From Bosea sp. BIWAKO-01 (GTDB taxonomy: Bacteria; Pseudomonadota; Alphaproteobacteria; Rhizobiales; Beijerinckiaceae), in NCBI RefSeq assembly GCF_001748145.1, contig NZ_BCQA01000002.1, positions 1-64,000 on the forward strand: DNA of 64,000 nt. The letters are read 5' to 3'. Made by a program: the position numbers and the translations under genes. Shown in pieces: positions 19,528 to 63,522 of this stretch. Under the pieces are notes generated by a model. That model was not told the origin of the DNA. It ran no database searches and saw nothing but the letters and a program-made list of their open reading frames with translations. The first letter of the stretch is position 1, and the number at the start of each line of letters is the position of its first letter.

Positions 19528-19552
19528 AACGTTCCGCTAGCCGGGTCGTTCC
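19528..19552 (-). promoter_or_regulatory. EcfG (general stress sigma) promoter of katE
   Basis: Minus strand: GGAAC (19548-19552), 16-base spacer, CGTT (19528-19531). This is an exact match to the EcfG consensus, 73 bases from the katE start. Confidence 0.8.
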
Positions 19553-41164: not shown

Positions 41165-41189
41165 GGAACGGTCCTTGTCCCGCCACGTT
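41165..41189 (+). promoter_or_regulatory. EcfG promoter of the DUF6894 gene
   Basis: GGAAC (41165-41169), 16-base spacer, CGTT (41186-41189), an exact consensus match 44 bases upstream of the ATG at 41234. Confidence 0.8.
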
Positions 41190-56218: not shown

Positions 56219-56243
56219 AACGCATTCCGCTTGCCTTAGTTCC
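56219..56243 (-). promoter_or_regulatory. EcfG promoter of the 24-residue protein gene
   Basis: Minus strand GGAAC (56239-56243), 16-base spacer, CGTT (56219-56222), exact consensus. Confidence 0.75.
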
Positions 56244-59668: not shown

Positions 59669-60070
59669 ATGCGCGCCATCGCTCTTACCCTCGCCGCCGC
59701 CCTGCTGTCCGGCACCGCCTTCGCCCAAACGGCTCCCGTCCCTGCACCGGCGGAGCCAAAGGTGTTTGTTTCCGTCGACGAAGCATCGGCGCTCGTCAGC
59801 AGCCTCAAGGGGCTGAACGTCAAGAACGCCGCTGACGAGACTGTCGGCGAAATCGAGGACTTCGTCATCGCCGGAAACTCCTTTGCTTCCTACATTCTGT
59901 CGGTCGGGGGCTTTCTAGGCATGGGAACCCATTATGTTGCAGTGAGCCCAAGCGCCCTTGCCGTCACCTGGAACGCGACGGACAAGAAATGGAATGCCAG
60001 GATCAACGCCACCAAGGAGCAGCTGAAGGCCGCGCAGCAATTCAAGTATGAAGGGCGCTTCGCGAAGTGA
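59669..60070 (+). CDS. Exported PRC-barrel domain protein
   Basis: 133 residues. Signal peptide MRAIALTLAAALLSGTAFAQ, then a PRC-barrel: LKGLNVKNAADETVGEIEDF, SYILSVGGFLGMGTHYVAVS. The C-terminal helix is ARINATKEQLKAAQQFKYEG. Periplasmic; such proteins are abundant in stress responses of rhizobia. AGAAGGA lies about 10 bases before the ATG. A textbook terminator follows at 60121-60145. Confidence 0.87.
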   Translation: MRAIALTLAAALLSGTAFAQTAPVPAPAEPKVFVSVDEASALVSSLKGLNVKNAADETVGEIEDFVIAGNSFASYILSVGGFLGMGTHYVAVSPSALAVTWNATDKKWNARINATKEQLKAAQQFKYEGRFAK

Positions 60071-60120
60071 TCTGACGCGCTCAGCCTCGCACAGCCAGTT
60101 CCTTCGTCCGGAGGAAAAAT

Positions 60121-60145
60121 GGCCCGCCGCTCGGCGGGCCTTTTT
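60121..60145 (+). terminator. Rho-independent terminator of the PRC-barrel gene
   Basis: GGCCCGCC (60121-60128), 4-base loop, GGCGGGCC (60133-60140), then five T. The stem is perfect. Confidence 0.9.
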
Positions 60146-60155
60146 GCCTTTCGGC

Positions 60156-60180
60156 GGAACCCTGCGTTTCCATGCGCGTT
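60156..60180 (+). promoter_or_regulatory. EcfG promoter of putative sRNA A
   Basis: GGAAC (60156-60160), 16-base spacer, CGTT (60177-60180), exact consensus. The next 66 bases run directly into a terminator without a gene. Confidence 0.8.
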
Positions 60181-60187
60181 CAGCCGG

Positions 60188-60246
60188 CACTACCCATGAA
60201 CCCCGGACTTGGCCCGCTGCGTGAGGACGCCGCGGGCCCTTTTTTG
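60188..60246 (+). ncRNA. Putative EcfG-driven small RNA A
   Basis: Start is inferred about 8 bases after the -10. The transcript of about 59 bases would end in a strong hairpin: GGCCCGC (60211-60217) with GCGGGCC (60232-60238), an inner 4-bp stem, and a purine loop GAGG, then six T. No ribosome site with an open frame is evident. The whole unit, including promoter and terminator with the CAGCC, ACTTTGGCCCGCTG and GGACGCCGCGGGCCC blocks, is repeated at 62265-62352. Confidence 0.6.
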
Positions 60247-60265
60247 TTTCTTTCTCTCGTACTTA

Positions 60266-60291
60266 GGAACCCTCGGTGGCCACGATCCGTT
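60266..60291 (+). promoter_or_regulatory. EcfG promoter of putative sRNA C
   Basis: GGAAC (60266-60270), 17-base spacer, CGTT (60288-60291), exact consensus, only 20 bases after the terminator of sRNA A. Confidence 0.8.
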
Positions 60292-60298
60292 TTGCTGG

Positions 60299-60380
60299 CG
60301 CGAGGGCGTGGAGCGATTGACACTCCACGGCCGCAACCCTCGCAGCCTGGGGCCCCGCTGCTGTCATTCGGCGGGGCTTT
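60299..60380 (+). ncRNA. Putative EcfG-driven small RNA C
   Basis: About 82 bases. A 5' structure pairs CGAGGG (60301-60306) with CCCTCG (60337-60342) and, inside it, CGTGGAG (60307-60313) with CTCCACG (60323-60329). It is followed by a terminator hairpin GCCCCGC (60352-60358) / GCGGGGC (60371-60377) and TTT. Similar units at 62605-62713 and 62986-63087 share a CACTC core, a CCGCA block and the GGCCCCGC terminator stem. Confidence 0.6.
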
Positions 60381-60513
60381 CTTCGGCTTTGAGCGGCAGA
60401 ATGTCGTTTGTTGCATTATGACCACGGTTGCACTGGACCGCTCGGTGCGTACCTTTCCGCGCTTGTCTTCTTTTTAAATGTTTTAAACTGTGAGCATCGC
60501 ACAGGAGTAAGCG

Positions 60514-60777
60514 ATGCCATTTCGTTCGATCGTAGCCTCGCCTGAAGAACTGGCCCGGATCGCTTCGGCGTTCGAGGAAGCGTGGGGTGAGGTCGCACAA
60601 TCGGTCGACCCCTTAAGTGCACCGGGGCAACGCGAGCGTCTCGCCGCCGTTATCACCGAGCTTTGGTCAGAGGACCCGACGATCGATCTCAAGCGAAGGG
60701 CGGTTCAACGCTTTCAGGAAATCGCGCTGAAAATTGCCGCCCCAGACGCCAAGGCGCCTCAAAAATCCGGAGGTTGA
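60514..60777 (+). CDS. Small helical protein, MPF(R/A) family copy 1
   Basis: 87 residues starting MPFRSIVASPEELARIASAF, with AGGAG 8 bases before the ATG. Predicted helical throughout (FEEAWGEVAQSVDPLSAPGQ, LKRRAVQRFQEIALKI). A close relative is at 63229 and a frameshifted third copy at 61437-61659. A shared TTTTAAACTGTG word lies at 60481-60492, ending 21 bases upstream, with identical spacing in the 63229 copy. No known domain. Lies just downstream of sRNA C. Confidence 0.75.
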   Translation: MPFRSIVASPEELARIASAFEEAWGEVAQSVDPLSAPGQRERLAAVITELWSEDPTIDLKRRAVQRFQEIALKIAAPDAKAPQKSGG

Positions 60778-60865
60778 AAGTCCCTGCGGAACCAAGTGCA
60801 TCGCTAATGGGCTATCGCGCGTGTCGACGCCGTGATCCCCTTCCGGCGCCGTGACAGCCTTGGGA

Positions 60866-60903
60866 GCCCCGCTGACCCCAACTCATTGGCCGGCGGGGTT
60901 CCG
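60866..60903 (+). terminator. Terminator-like hairpin after the small helical protein gene
   Basis: GCCCCGC (60866-60872) pairs with GCGGGGT (60893-60899) around a long loop, followed by a weak TTCC. The preceding bases (GACAGCCTTGGGAGCCCCGCTG) resemble the 3' part of sRNA C, but the GGAAC at 60776 lacks a -10 match. Either this gene's terminator or a decayed sRNA copy. Confidence 0.5.
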
Positions 60904-60976
60904 TGGCGTGTGACGCCCGAGATGTAGGGCGATGCGCTCAATCGCTGAGAAATAGCTGTGGTGGCGTCGCGATCCC

Positions 60977-61300
60977 CTACCGCGCTCTCACCGGCCTGAG
61001 AGGGCCTCGCCTGGAGCGGTGGGGCCCACATTCAGCCTTCATTTTAAGCCGCAGCCGCTCGATCTGAACCTTCAGCGCAGCGACTGCTGCCTCACCGCGA
61101 ACGGCCTTGATGCCTTGGTTCTCGCGGTCGATCGCGTGGGGGACGCCATCAAGGATTCGGGCTCGTTCCGCCTTTGGGAGGGCGAGAAGATACTCGACCT
61201 CGCATTCGTGCCGCCACTCCCCGGAATCGGAAAGAACCTCGCGACCGAAGAGATGGGACCAGACGACGCGAGGAGCGGTCTCATGAACTGTCCTATGCAC
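60977..61300 (-). CDS. Hypothetical protein with WRHECEV motif
   Basis: 107 residues from a GTG at 61298-61300, which has GGAGG six bases upstream; longer in-frame starts upstream have no such signal. Sequence VLSDSGEWRHECEVEYLLAL, PKAERARILDGVPHAIDREN, then GEAAVAALKVQIERLRLKMK resembles small rhizobial proteins in which a W-R-H-x-C-E-V motif precedes a helical repeat. Function unknown. Cytoplasmic. Confidence 0.65.
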   Translation of the reverse strand: MHRTVHETAPRVVWSHLFGREVLSDSGEWRHECEVEYLLALPKAERARILDGVPHAIDRENQGIKAVRGEAAVAALKVQIERLRLKMKAECGPHRSRRGPLRPVRAR

Positions 61301-61436
61301 GGTGAACCTCCAGGGGTTAACCCCAGACGGATCGATTTCATGAAAGCACCGACGTAACCGCATCCCGTGTGGCACAACTCCAGGGCGCGAAATTGTCAGT
61401 TCCACGGAGTGGTTCCACTTACTTTGCGGATGTTGG

Positions 61437-61659
61437 TCACACGTTCGTTGTCTGTCGGAAGCGTTCTTTGGCCCGCCACGCCAGGTCGTCTTCGTCTTCG
61501 GCCACATGGACCAGCGCAGCCACGATGTAAGCGAGCCGGATGTGCTCCCGCTCCTCATATCCATGGGGAACGGTCGATCTGACTTCGTTCCAGGCGGCAT
61601 CCAGCGCCGCGCGCGCCCCGAGCGAGGTCAACGGGGTCATTCAGCGTTGCGAATGGCAT
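61437..61659 (-). pseudogene. Small helical protein, MPF family copy 3, frameshifted
   Basis: The ATG at 61657-61659 has a strong GGGAG ribosome site and begins MPFATLNDPVDLA, matching the family start. That frame soon leaves the family. The family core resumes one base out of phase as ARAALDAAWNEV, EREHIRLAYIVAALVHVAED and LAWRAKERFRQ, ending at 61437. One extra base in the GC-rich run near 61615-61625 explains it. A shorter intact product could start at the ATG 61640 but without a ribosome site. Confidence 0.65.
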
Positions 61660-61688
61660 GACTCCCTCCCTCCACAGTGAATCTGACG

Positions 61689-62117
61689 CTAGGAGCCGAT
61701 GAGGCGCTTTGCCCGTTGCACGGCCTCCATGCATTCGGTCTCCCGACCAGCGCGATCGAGCCCCTTCGCCCGATCCAGCGCTGCAGAGGCTTCAGCCTTG
61801 TTCGTTACGGCCGGCGGACGCGATCCCTTTCCCTGCTCGGCGGTGGTCGATCGGCCTTGCGTCTGGCGCCGGACATCTTCAGGCGAGATCGCCTTGCCCT
61901 GAGCTTCGCGGTTCATAATTTCCGCCGGCGGATGTTGGGTTGCCCCGGCGCCGGACTCGCTTGTGCCTGCAGCGCCCGACGTTGGTCCAGAACCCGCGTC
62001 CGTCGCGGCCAATGTCTTCGTGAGGGCTTCGACTTCACCGGTGCAGGGACCGGCGAATGCTATGCTGGCCTGAAGAGCGGACGCGAAACCCACGGAGAAA
62101 CAGCGAGAGAGTTTCAT
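61689..62117 (-). CDS. Small exported Ala/Glu-rich protein
   Basis: 142 residues from MKLSRCFSVGFASALQASIA, a signal peptide ending AFA. The mature N-terminus PCTGEVEALTKTLAATDAGS is followed by a disordered Gly/Ser/Thr-rich stretch (GPTSGAAGTSESGAGATQHP), then QTQGRSTTAEQGKGSRPPAV and a helical end with a Cys (KGLDRAGRETECMEAVQRAK). Resembles small periplasmic proteins of unknown role in related bacteria. A perfect EcfG promoter lies 46 bases upstream. Confidence 0.78.
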   Translation of the reverse strand: MKLSRCFSVGFASALQASIAFAGPCTGEVEALTKTLAATDAGSGPTSGAAGTSESGAGATQHPPAEIMNREAQGKAISPEDVRRQTQGRSTTAEQGKGSRPPAVTNKAEASAALDRAKGLDRAGRETECMEAVQRAKRLIGS

Positions 62118-62162
62118 GATTGGTGCTCCCGTTGCTCGAGGCACGGACAATCGCGACCCAAA

Positions 62163-62188
62163 AACGCGTAGGCGTTTTCGAATGTTCC
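62163..62188 (-). promoter_or_regulatory. EcfG promoter of the exported-protein gene
   Basis: Minus strand GGAAC (62184-62188), 17-base spacer, CGTT (62163-62166), exact consensus, pointing at the gene starting at 62117. Confidence 0.78.
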
Positions 62189-62264
62189 GGCCGGCGCGGC
62201 CGTGTCCGTCATCGCCCTAGGGTTGGCCAATCCAAGGGGGTGGCGGGCCTTTTTGCAATGGCGC

Positions 62265-62289
62265 GGAACCCGCCGTTCTTATCCGCGTT
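62265..62289 (+). promoter_or_regulatory. EcfG promoter of putative sRNA B / cold-shock leader
   Basis: GGAAC (62265-62269), 16-base spacer, CGTT (62286-62289), exact consensus. Followed by a terminator and then the cold-shock gene. Confidence 0.8.
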
Positions 62290-62296
62290 CAGCCCG

Positions 62297-62352
62297 TCAC
62301 TGATGAGCCAGACTTTGGCCCGCTGTGGGAGGACGCCGCGGGCCCTTTTTTT
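62297..62352 (+). ncRNA. Putative EcfG-driven small RNA B (or attenuating leader of csp)
   Basis: About 56 bases from the inferred start, ending in GGCCCGC (62317-62323) / GCGGGCC (62338-62344) with the same mismatch and purine loop (GGGAGGA) as sRNA A, then seven T. Copy of sRNA A. Here the terminator lies 25 bases before the cold-shock ATG, so it could also be a 5' attenuator controlling read-through into that gene. Confidence 0.58.
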
Positions 62353-62377
62353 GGGCTCAGAGTTGCGGAGGACGGCC

Positions 62378-62587
62378 ATGGCGACGGGAACGGTGAAGTG
62401 GTTCAATCCCACCAAGGGATTTGGTTTTATTCAACCTGACGACGGCGGGCACGATGTGTTTGTTCACATCAGCGCCTTGGAGCGTGCGGGATTGAGAGAG
62501 CTGCGCGACGGACAGAAAGTCGCTTACGATCTCGTTCCCGACAAACGCTCGGGAAAAACCTGTGCCGAGAACCTCAAGCCGGAATAG
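62378..62587 (+). CDS. cspA: Cold-shock domain protein
   Basis: 69 residues, single CSD that binds single-stranded RNA/DNA. RNP1 [10 protein letters not shown] and RNP2 DVFVHISAL are intact, with [18 protein letters not shown] at the start. Ribosome site GCGGAGGA precedes the ATG. Upstream lie an EcfG promoter and a terminator hairpin (sRNA B), so expression may need read-through. The symbol is generic; alphaproteobacteria carry several copies. Confidence 0.93.
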
Positions 62588-62604
62588 GGCCGGCTGATAA
62601 TCAT

Positions 62605-62630
62605 GGAACTAGACTACGGGACTATTCGTT
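62605..62630 (+). promoter_or_regulatory. EcfG promoter of putative sRNA D
   Basis: GGAAC (62605-62609), 17-base spacer, CGTT (62627-62630), exact consensus, 18 bases after the cold-shock stop codon. Confidence 0.8.
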
Positions 62631-62637
62631 TGGTTGG

Positions 62638-62713
62638 CGTGCTGGCTTCTATTCCACTCTCGGAGGCCGCACGGCCTAAGGCCCCGCTGTATTTGCCTGC
62701 GGCGGGGCCCCTT
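62638..62713 (+). ncRNA. Putative EcfG-driven small RNA D
   Basis: About 76 bases. Contains the CACTCTC core, a small hairpin AGGCCG / CGGCCT (62664-62677), and a terminator stem GGCCCCGC (62680-62687) / GCGGGGCC (62702-62709) with a weak T run. Same plan as sRNAs C and E. Confidence 0.55.
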
Positions 62714-62985
62714 GACGAGATCTTTTCGATATCTGTGAGGCCTGAGCTGGCGTGGATAGGACCTGAGTTTTGGACCAGGTCGGAAGCGCCAGAACACGCC
62801 AATCTGATGAGGGAATAGCGGCCGCGTTGGAATCGGAAGCGCTTGCAGCCGCCGCCGCGTAGTCTGCCACGACACTGGGAATGTCCAAAGGTAGGAAGCA
62901 GCGAGGCGCGGAAGCAGACACGGCTTATCTCCTGAGGCTTGCCGCCAGACGACCACGCCGTCGCATCCATTTCAATGGAGATCCC

Positions 62986-63011
62986 GGAACGAATCTCCCA
63001 GGGCCGGCGTT
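62986..63011 (+). promoter_or_regulatory. EcfG promoter of putative sRNA E
   Basis: GGAAC (62986-62990), 17-base spacer, CGTT (63008-63011), exact consensus. Confidence 0.8.
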
Positions 63012-63018
63012 CTCTGCG

Positions 63019-63087
63019 CGTGCTGGCCAACACTCTCCATAGCCCGCACCGCCTGGGGCCCCGCCGCAGCCATACGGCGGGGCCTTT
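63019..63087 (+). ncRNA. Putative EcfG-driven small RNA E
   Basis: About 69 bases with the core CACTCTCC and a near-perfect terminator GGCCCCGCCG (63057-63066) / CGGCGGGGCC (63075-63084), then TTT. The GCCTGGGGCCCCGC block is shared with sRNA C. It precedes the second copy of the small helical protein gene, as sRNA C precedes the first. Confidence 0.6.
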
Positions 63088-63228
63088 GCGGCGGCACTCT
63101 TCTTCCTCCCCCCGCTCCCATTTGTGCTATGATAACAACGGCTTGGCTGGATCGGGCGGCGGCTGGGTATTTCGCACTTGCACTGGTGGAAGTAGTTTTA
63201 AACTGTGCGGTTCGCGGGGGAGGATGCG

Positions 63229-63522
63229 ATGCCGTTCCGATCGATTGTCGCCACGCCCGAGGAGCTTGCCGGAATTGTCGCAGCGTTTGAGGACGCATGG
63301 CGCAAAATAGATGCACGGGGATCTATTGATCCCCTAAGTGCTTCAGCTGAACGCGAGCGTCTCGGATACATCGTTGCTGGATTGTGGTCGGCGGGCCATG
63401 CAGACGCACTGGCAGAGTTAGCTGTCAGACAGTTCGATGAAACTGCTGGGACTTCTCGCGCTCAAGCCCGCAATAATATGCGCGCGAGTTCCCCGAACAA
63501 TATGGGCACGCCGGGGAACTAG
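63229..63522 (+). CDS. Small helical protein, MPF family copy 2
   Basis: 97 residues from MPFRSIVATPEELAGIVAAF, with GGGGGAGG just upstream. EDAWRKIDARGSIDPLSASA and ERERLGYIVAGLWSAGHADA align with the copy at 60514. The last 25 residues are a Gln/Asn/Ser-rich tail (ARNNMRASSPNNMGTPGN) not shared by the other copies. The TTTTAAACTGTG word at 63196-63207 ends 21 bases upstream, exactly as for copy 1. No known domain. Confidence 0.73.
   Translation: MPFRSIVATPEELAGIVAAFEDAWRKIDARGSIDPLSASAERERLGYIVAGLWSAGHADALAELAVRQFDETAGTSRAQARNNMRASSPNNMGTPGN

Follow-up and report, generated by a model that had tools for sequence, protein, structure and literature searches.

Candidate sibling RNAs behind EcfG-type promoters in Bosea sp. 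BIWAKO-01

Does the general stress response of Bosea include a set of duplicated small RNAs (sRNAs)? The question is raised by a 64,000-nt stretch of the Bosea sp. BIWAKO-01 genome (positions 1-64000 of contig C2; the window, below), near the end of which an earlier note described five putative sRNAs, each behind a perfect promoter of the EcfG type. The five sites, GGAAC-N16/17-CGTT at 60156, 60266, 62265, 62605 and 62986, are all present, and a GC hairpin follows each of them, with folding z values of -3.2 to -4.6 in three of the RNAs and -1.6 to -1.8 in the other two. Based on these and other data, the units are very probably structured RNAs driven by EcfG. That they act mainly in trans, as sibling sRNAs of two unrelated families with most copies behind an EcfG promoter, seems a little better than an even bet.

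Promoter sites in the window and in the genome

The window holds 10 matches to GGAAC-N16/17-CGTT on its two strands, compared to a mean of 0.88 and a maximum of 4 in 100 shuffled windows, and to 1.43 expected per window at the genome rate (164 matches in 7.33 Mb). Six of these sites, five on the + strand and one on the - strand, lie in the cluster 60156-63011, where 0.06 would be expected at that rate. The four remaining perfect sites, at 41165, 47210, 19528-19552 (- strand) and 56219-56243 (- strand), have no match to either RNA model (R1 and R2, see below) behind them.

Further clusters of EcfG-pattern sites surround nepR and occupy two islands of the chromosome, near 4.22 and 4.78 Mb. The nepR gene is encoded on another contig, C1, rather than on the 494,138-base contig C2; the NepR match at C1:1923379 (E 4.8e-13) is ringed by EcfG-pattern sites, marking a general-stress core in this genome. 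The open reading frames (ORFs) that flank nepR on both sides are, by position alone, presumably phyR and ecfG. Two chromosomal ORFs that we take, by eye, to encode Ku (L119:3679 and L120:18774) have a perfect EcfG site each and provide a plausible positive control for the motif. An ORF that resembles DNA ligase D starts beside the RNA cluster (63437 onward) and runs off the window.

Two RNA families and their copies

The five RNAs are called A to E in the order of their coordinates. If the earlier note used the same lettering, its families A/B and C/D/E are ruled out by alignments and covariance models, which instead join A with C (60156/62265; A-type) and B with D and E (60266/62605/62986; BDE-type). 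The note also overlooked a sixth, weaker BDE-type copy, F. The models cover the RNA part only and contain no promoter bases in the case of R1, which was seeded with D, E and two copies from genus genome G078; R2 was likewise built on the RNA part of nine A-type seed copies, and R3 was rebuilt from 12 BDE copies. The cluster is laid out as follows, in window coordinates.

60121..60145, + strand: intrinsic terminator behind the PRC-barrel gene, ahead of promoter A (sequence; weak partial R2 match)
60156..60180, + strand: EcfG promoter of A, GGAAC-N16-CGTT (pattern search)
60181..60248, + strand: A, A-type RNA with an unpaired 5' part containing CATGAACCCCGGACTT and a predicted terminator GGCCCGC...GCGGGCC-T6 (R2 73.4 bits, seed; fold)
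60266..60291, + strand: EcfG promoter of B, GGAAC-N17-CGTT (pattern search)
60292..60383, + strand: B, BDE-type RNA with a 5' hairpin and a GC hairpin with TTTCTT (R1 E 1.6e-4, non-seed; z -3.5)
60514..60777, + strand: small ORF, 87 aa, MPFRSIVA family (no Pfam or NCBIfam match)
60788..60813, + strand: degenerate promoter of F, GGAAC-N17-GGCT (sequence)
60815..60905, + strand: F, BDE-type copy (R3 E 0.23; positioned with respect to the ORF like copy G078b of genome G078)
62163..62188, - strand: EcfG promoter, GGAAC-N17-CGTT, before a 142-aa ORF at 61689-62117 on the - strand whose product, judged by eye, looks secreted and matches nothing in NCBIfam (pattern search)
62265..62289, + strand: EcfG promoter of C, GGAAC-N16-CGTT (pattern search)
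62288..62354, + strand: C, A-type RNA with predicted terminator and T7; the match begins 2 nt inside the promoter box (R2 75.1 bits, seed; fold)
62378..62587, + strand: cold-shock protein gene (csp), 69 aa, with its start codon 23 nt past RNA C (Pfam PF00313, E 2.4e-23)
62605..62630, + strand: EcfG promoter of D, GGAAC-N17-CGTT (pattern search)
62631..62714, + strand: D, BDE-type RNA with two hairpins and no U tract (R1 seed; z -4.6)
62986..63011, + strand: EcfG promoter of E, GGAAC-N17-CGTT (pattern search)
63012..63089, + strand: E, BDE-type RNA with loop CACUCUCCA, two hairpins and a short TTT (R1 seed; z -3.2)
63229..63522, + strand: small ORF, 97 aa, MPFRSIVA family (sequence comparison)

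Plain BLAST of 61 genus genomes was nearly empty, giving a single short terminator-like match outside this genome, and covariance models were therefore used. A pattern search of 61 genus genomes gave mostly unrelated matches, with related units in G070, G078 and G013. When R1 was run against 67 genus genomes, 13 matches were found at E <= 0.1, four of them seeds; seven of the nine non-seed matches lie directly behind GGAAC-N16/17-(C/G)GTT, and the remaining two are weak (E 0.027 and 0.097). In this genome R3 gave 14 matches at E <= 5. The best nine and one at 4228604 (c4228, E 2.49) bear the promoter, F has only its degenerate version, and three promoterless matches (E 0.4-2.2) were set aside as chance. 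The copies accepted in this genome are 11 BDE and 7 A-type matches, with a promoter at 14 of the 18 (10 BDE and 4 of the 7 A-type). Ten of the 11 BDE copies fit the published EcfG consensus, GAAC-N16,17-C/GGTT (excerpt of PMC4814048). Altogether 17 BDE-like sequences are listed, with exact promoter boxes as the counting criterion: the promoter is present in 14 (including G078a, with a 15-base spacer) and absent from F and two partial copies. A second BDE subgroup is apparent, consisting of G078b, G070C67, c4219b, c4784b and F, with a GGTT or GGCT box.

Promoter sequences, folds, family membership and paralogy all emerge directly from these computations. Between BDE copies, the spacer and the 20 upstream bases have an identity of 0.25-0.30 while the GGAAC and (C/G)GTT boxes, whose exact presence was the counting criterion, are kept, arguing that the promoter is held by selection. 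All 14 BDE copies that were folded contain a 5' hairpin and a GC hairpin. In the model-fitted alignment of 12 copies, six pairs are changed on both sides (shuffle mean 1.9, with 0 of 500 as high; at most 4 in slid controls), and the 5' hairpin alone has five of its nine pairs changed in this way. The same pair of hairpins comes out of an unfitted MAFFT alignment of the 14 copies; double-sided changes affect 5 of its 15 pairs, three of these in the 5' hairpin. The proposal that the RNA units are paralogues controlled by the general stress sigma factor is thereby strengthened in part: non-seed copies keep the promoter, the BDE spacers have diverged and the hairpins have compensatory changes.

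The same results bear on another idea, in which recombination inside stress islands has spread the units as repeat cassettes, and promoter and hairpin survive simply because the copies are recent. Copies do occur on both replicons, and a promoter-only remnant exists (G000:C2:288340-288373, - strand), with 34 bases identical to promoter A and a similar upstream stretch but without the RNA. The BDE copies are old, however, with spacer identity near chance and with promoter boxes and pairings kept, which makes this explanation very unlikely.

The A-type RNAs have no 5' hairpin; their 5' part, CAUGA-CCC-GACUUGG, stays single-stranded in the fold and leads into a lone terminator hairpin. Twelve copies are listed, nine with a promoter. 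Of 33 R2 matches in the genus, 23 were read, and past the nine strongest a promoter occurs only at G078C44. The A-type hairpin resembles ordinary GGCCCGC terminators, and the weak R2 matches read elsewhere are just such terminators. This likeness, together with the location of D and c4784 just after csp genes, would fit the view that the hairpins are mere terminators of neighboring genes and that the promoters drive ordinary mRNAs, the RNAs themselves having no function. Such a view is improbable for several reasons. The gene before A is already ended by the terminator at 60121-60145, leaving hairpin A unneeded there; B follows the T run of A by about 20 nt, and the 270 nt between D and E contain no convincing gene. 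In addition, the BDE RNAs have the second, covarying 5' hairpin. Finally, the matches in other genera differ from the units described here: a search for A-type RNAs outside Bosea gave 11 weak R2 matches in 11 other genomes of the order, and the seven that were read (four were left unread) are plain terminators without an EcfG site, so that this candidate extension of the family was rejected.

How might such RNAs act? Transcription and termination of both families are predicted from sequence, as are trans-action and targets. A BDE-type RNA would begin within a few bases downstream of the CGTT box, fold the 5' hairpin and end in the second GC hairpin. Under stress, the C/U-rich loop of the BDE type, or the single-stranded 5' part of the A type, could then base-pair in trans near the ribosome-binding sites of mRNAs, and the many copies might raise the dose and leave siblings free to diverge in their targets. 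The C/U-rich motif in BDE hairpin 1 (CACUCUCC or close) is found in 9 of 15 copies. The pairing step follows by analogy with LhrC and GsrN (excerpts of PMC13350326 and PMC5869019).

Several results weigh against trans-acting sibling sRNAs or limit the data behind them. Genome-wide, the EcfG motif shows no excess over its reversed pattern (164 vs 160 matches); the motif alone therefore proves nothing, and the weight falls on the clustering and on what follows the sites. The BDE list is partly circular, in that c4228 (E 2.49) entered it on account of its promoter and the promoterless matches at E 0.4-2.2 did not enter, and eight of the best nine R3 matches had trained R3. The A-type seeds were chosen partly by promoter presence, only one of three full-length non-seed R2 matches with E < 0.003 has a promoter, the spacer identity is 0.39-0.44 and the stem pairs barely vary; at the family level, the sequence case for the A type is the weaker of the two. 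The C/U motif has a mean unpaired probability of at least 0.8 in five of the nine copies, of 0.60 and 0.44 in two, and of 0.23 in B and c4228. Because it is clearly unpaired in just five, trans-action was rated slightly lower, and the terminator view and the leader view discussed below slightly higher. The earlier note found T runs in most of the five RNAs: A and C have clear ones, B a moderate and E a short one, D none, and since D, F, c4783 and c5963 have no clear U tract, discrete 3' ends are uncertain. Lastly, A-type and BDE-type RNAs co-fold more weakly than with shuffled partners (means of -3.9 vs -6.3 kcal/mol for 35 pairs), and kissing of the A-type loop (GGAGG) with the BDE loop (CUCUCC), a contact first noticed by eye, was rejected on this result, which comes from nested co-folding, a method unable to represent loop-loop kissing.

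Distribution and relation to known systems

Accepted copies were found in 4 of the 67 genus genomes. No accepted copy was found elsewhere in the order, a negative of limited sensitivity, since the covariance scans scored 23-25 candidates per genome there and 69-76 in the genus; absence is weak evidence in both cases. The single BDE match in 198 other genomes of the order is weak, has no EcfG site and was set aside. Among 20 plasmids listed of 244 records, the matches are to the csp, PRC-barrel and 61482-61679 stretches and not to the RNAs. The Rfam and covariance-model searches that the earlier note proposed had different outcomes: Rfam gave no family at its gathering score in the window (and five sub-threshold matches in 60000-63200), while the models built here revealed more copies in the genus. 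A literature search, limited to the papers of one library, turned up none joining Bosea, sRNA and EcfG, and it is solely on this search and the Rfam scans that the families are called unreported.

Tandem homologous stress sRNAs do exist in another alphaproteobacterium: the CcsR sRNAs of Rhodobacter lie beside a small protein gene. They differ from the RNAs described here in having RpoH-type promoters and in being a cotranscribed array.

The comparison with GsrN drawn in the earlier note holds as an analogy. GsrN of Caulobacter is described as the product of one gene, gsrN, and its homologues, the GsrN-like RNAs of other Alphaproteobacteria, typically lie by phyR/nepR/ecfG, with C. crescentus as an exception (excerpt of PMC5869019). 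According to the same excerpt, GsrN is a short RNA directly under an EcfG-type sigma factor in the general stress response, and its 5' part exposes a C-rich loop ahead of a 3' terminator, which may recall the C/U motif of those BDE copies that have it, clearly unpaired in five of the nine. The likeness is one of description and not of compared sequences, and there are clear differences. This genome has 11 BDE and 7 A-type matches, of which none lies in the 19 kb around nepR (L121), where R1 gave no match, R2 none of full length, and inspection by eye no GsrN-like RNA in the parts read. NepR is encoded on C1 near 1.923 Mb and the window is on C2; this distance is not disqualifying by itself, since gsrN of C. 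crescentus is likewise distal.

Two further systems are similar in part. In Sinorhizobium meliloti, 23 sRNAs are preceded by a predicted motif for sigma-E2 (RpoE2), and microarrays gave evidence for 8 intergenic regions; the general-stress promoters are alike by description, and a sibling family is not described in the excerpt of this paper (PMC3616915). The LhrC sRNAs of Listeria (LhrC1-5 and two further members) are multicopy siblings with a stem-loop and a terminator loop whose CU-rich motifs pair near ribosome-binding sites; they belong to a different organism and are controlled by LisR, and the likeness is again descriptive, with no homology claimed (excerpt of PMC13350326). General-stress sRNAs are thus known, and the sequence data suggest that the novelty here is two large sibling families in shuffled cassettes. 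In the excerpted literature, the sRNA studied best in the general stress response of Alphaproteobacteria is GsrN, a single gene. The 14 promoter-bearing copies of this genome would show that the RNA arm can be expanded by duplication, like sibling sRNAs elsewhere, and the many copies would be natural replicates for target finding.

Small reading frames behind the RNAs

The earlier note saw no evident long frame behind the promoters. This is correct inside the RNAs and misses what lies just beyond them: 23 nt separate C from the start of the cold-shock ORF, and B and E are followed, at distances of 130 and 139 nt, by the 87-aa and 97-aa ORFs. The arrangement counts, with the points above, against stand-alone sRNAs, whose status is the conjectural part of the original proposal. 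Of 27 copies in all, 11 have directly behind them a small ORF that recurs at another copy, in some cases just 20-23 nt away. The ORF is csp behind C, c4214 and c4783A; a member of the MPFRSIVA family behind B, E and G078a; EIWSSEVLIPI-like behind c5963, G070C33 and G070C67A; and MPxHxxPPV-like behind G078b and G078C44. Even among the other 16 copies, which are not directly before a shared ORF, intact or broken, A and its G078 counterpart are separated from an MPFRSIVA ORF by a BDE copy, c4784 has a truncated MPFRSIVA ORF behind it, and c4783 a candidate ORF of 97 aa.

These data raise the possibility that the units are 5' leaders, in which an EcfG promoter and a structured, partly terminating leader set the output of the small ORF behind; in a variant for csp, its product, the cold-shock RNA chaperone, could melt the terminator hairpin in the leader of its own mRNA. 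The 11 copies above (one of them before a broken csp) fit this explanation, as does the start of csp 22-23 nt after A-type RNAs, which leaves no room for another promoter. The EIWSSEVLIPI-like and MPxHxxPPV-like ORFs are each found behind both RNA types, at 64-66% identity, and c5963 has no U tract while its orthologue G070C33 has only a displaced CTCTTTT, their ORFs starting 20-21 nt further on. On the other side, the 16 remaining copies have no such ORF directly behind them, and relatives of the ORFs are mostly without the promoter: EcfG sites lie upstream of 3 of the 15 MPFRSIVA ORFs read and 1 of the 30 csp genes read (c4214 and c4783A, both with csp behind an A-type RNA, are outside those 30), arguing that these ORFs do not need the RNA. 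A role of csp as obligate partner was rejected on the latter count. Behind A-type RNAs, csp is damaged in two cases out of three (C1:4783687 is frameshifted, and C1:4214610 is shortened with a foreign tail), and the RNA persists beside them. Finally, the MPFRSIVA genes near the cluster keep their own TTTTAAACTGTG element close to the start codon, both with an RNA (B, E and G078a) and, in diverged form, without one (L002 and L170). The leader explanation is unlikely on balance, though the likeliest of the rivals.

A combination of the two views is somewhat less probable again. The units may be interchangeable general-stress cassettes, each yielding a regulatory RNA when transcription terminates and, when read-through is allowed in a controlled way, an mRNA for the small stress protein encoded behind it; two unrelated RNA types would do the same job and be swapped before the same ORF families. 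If this were true, an unusually large set of sibling sRNAs in one genome would couple riboregulation to small-protein output. Since some copies have a small ORF behind them and others do not, the set offers a way to test whether mRNA leaders give rise to stress sRNAs or develop from them.

The order A, BDE, MPFRSIVA ORF, BDE is common to the window and genome G078. The MPFRSIVA family, which has no Pfam or NCBIfam match, is itself widespread, with matches at E <= 1e-5 in 49 of the 67 genus genomes. Several ordinary Bosea csp genes (L094, L098, L099, L103, L106-L108 and others) have a conserved 5' leader of their own, with a GGCC-TGATGACTT-GGCC hairpin or a close variant.

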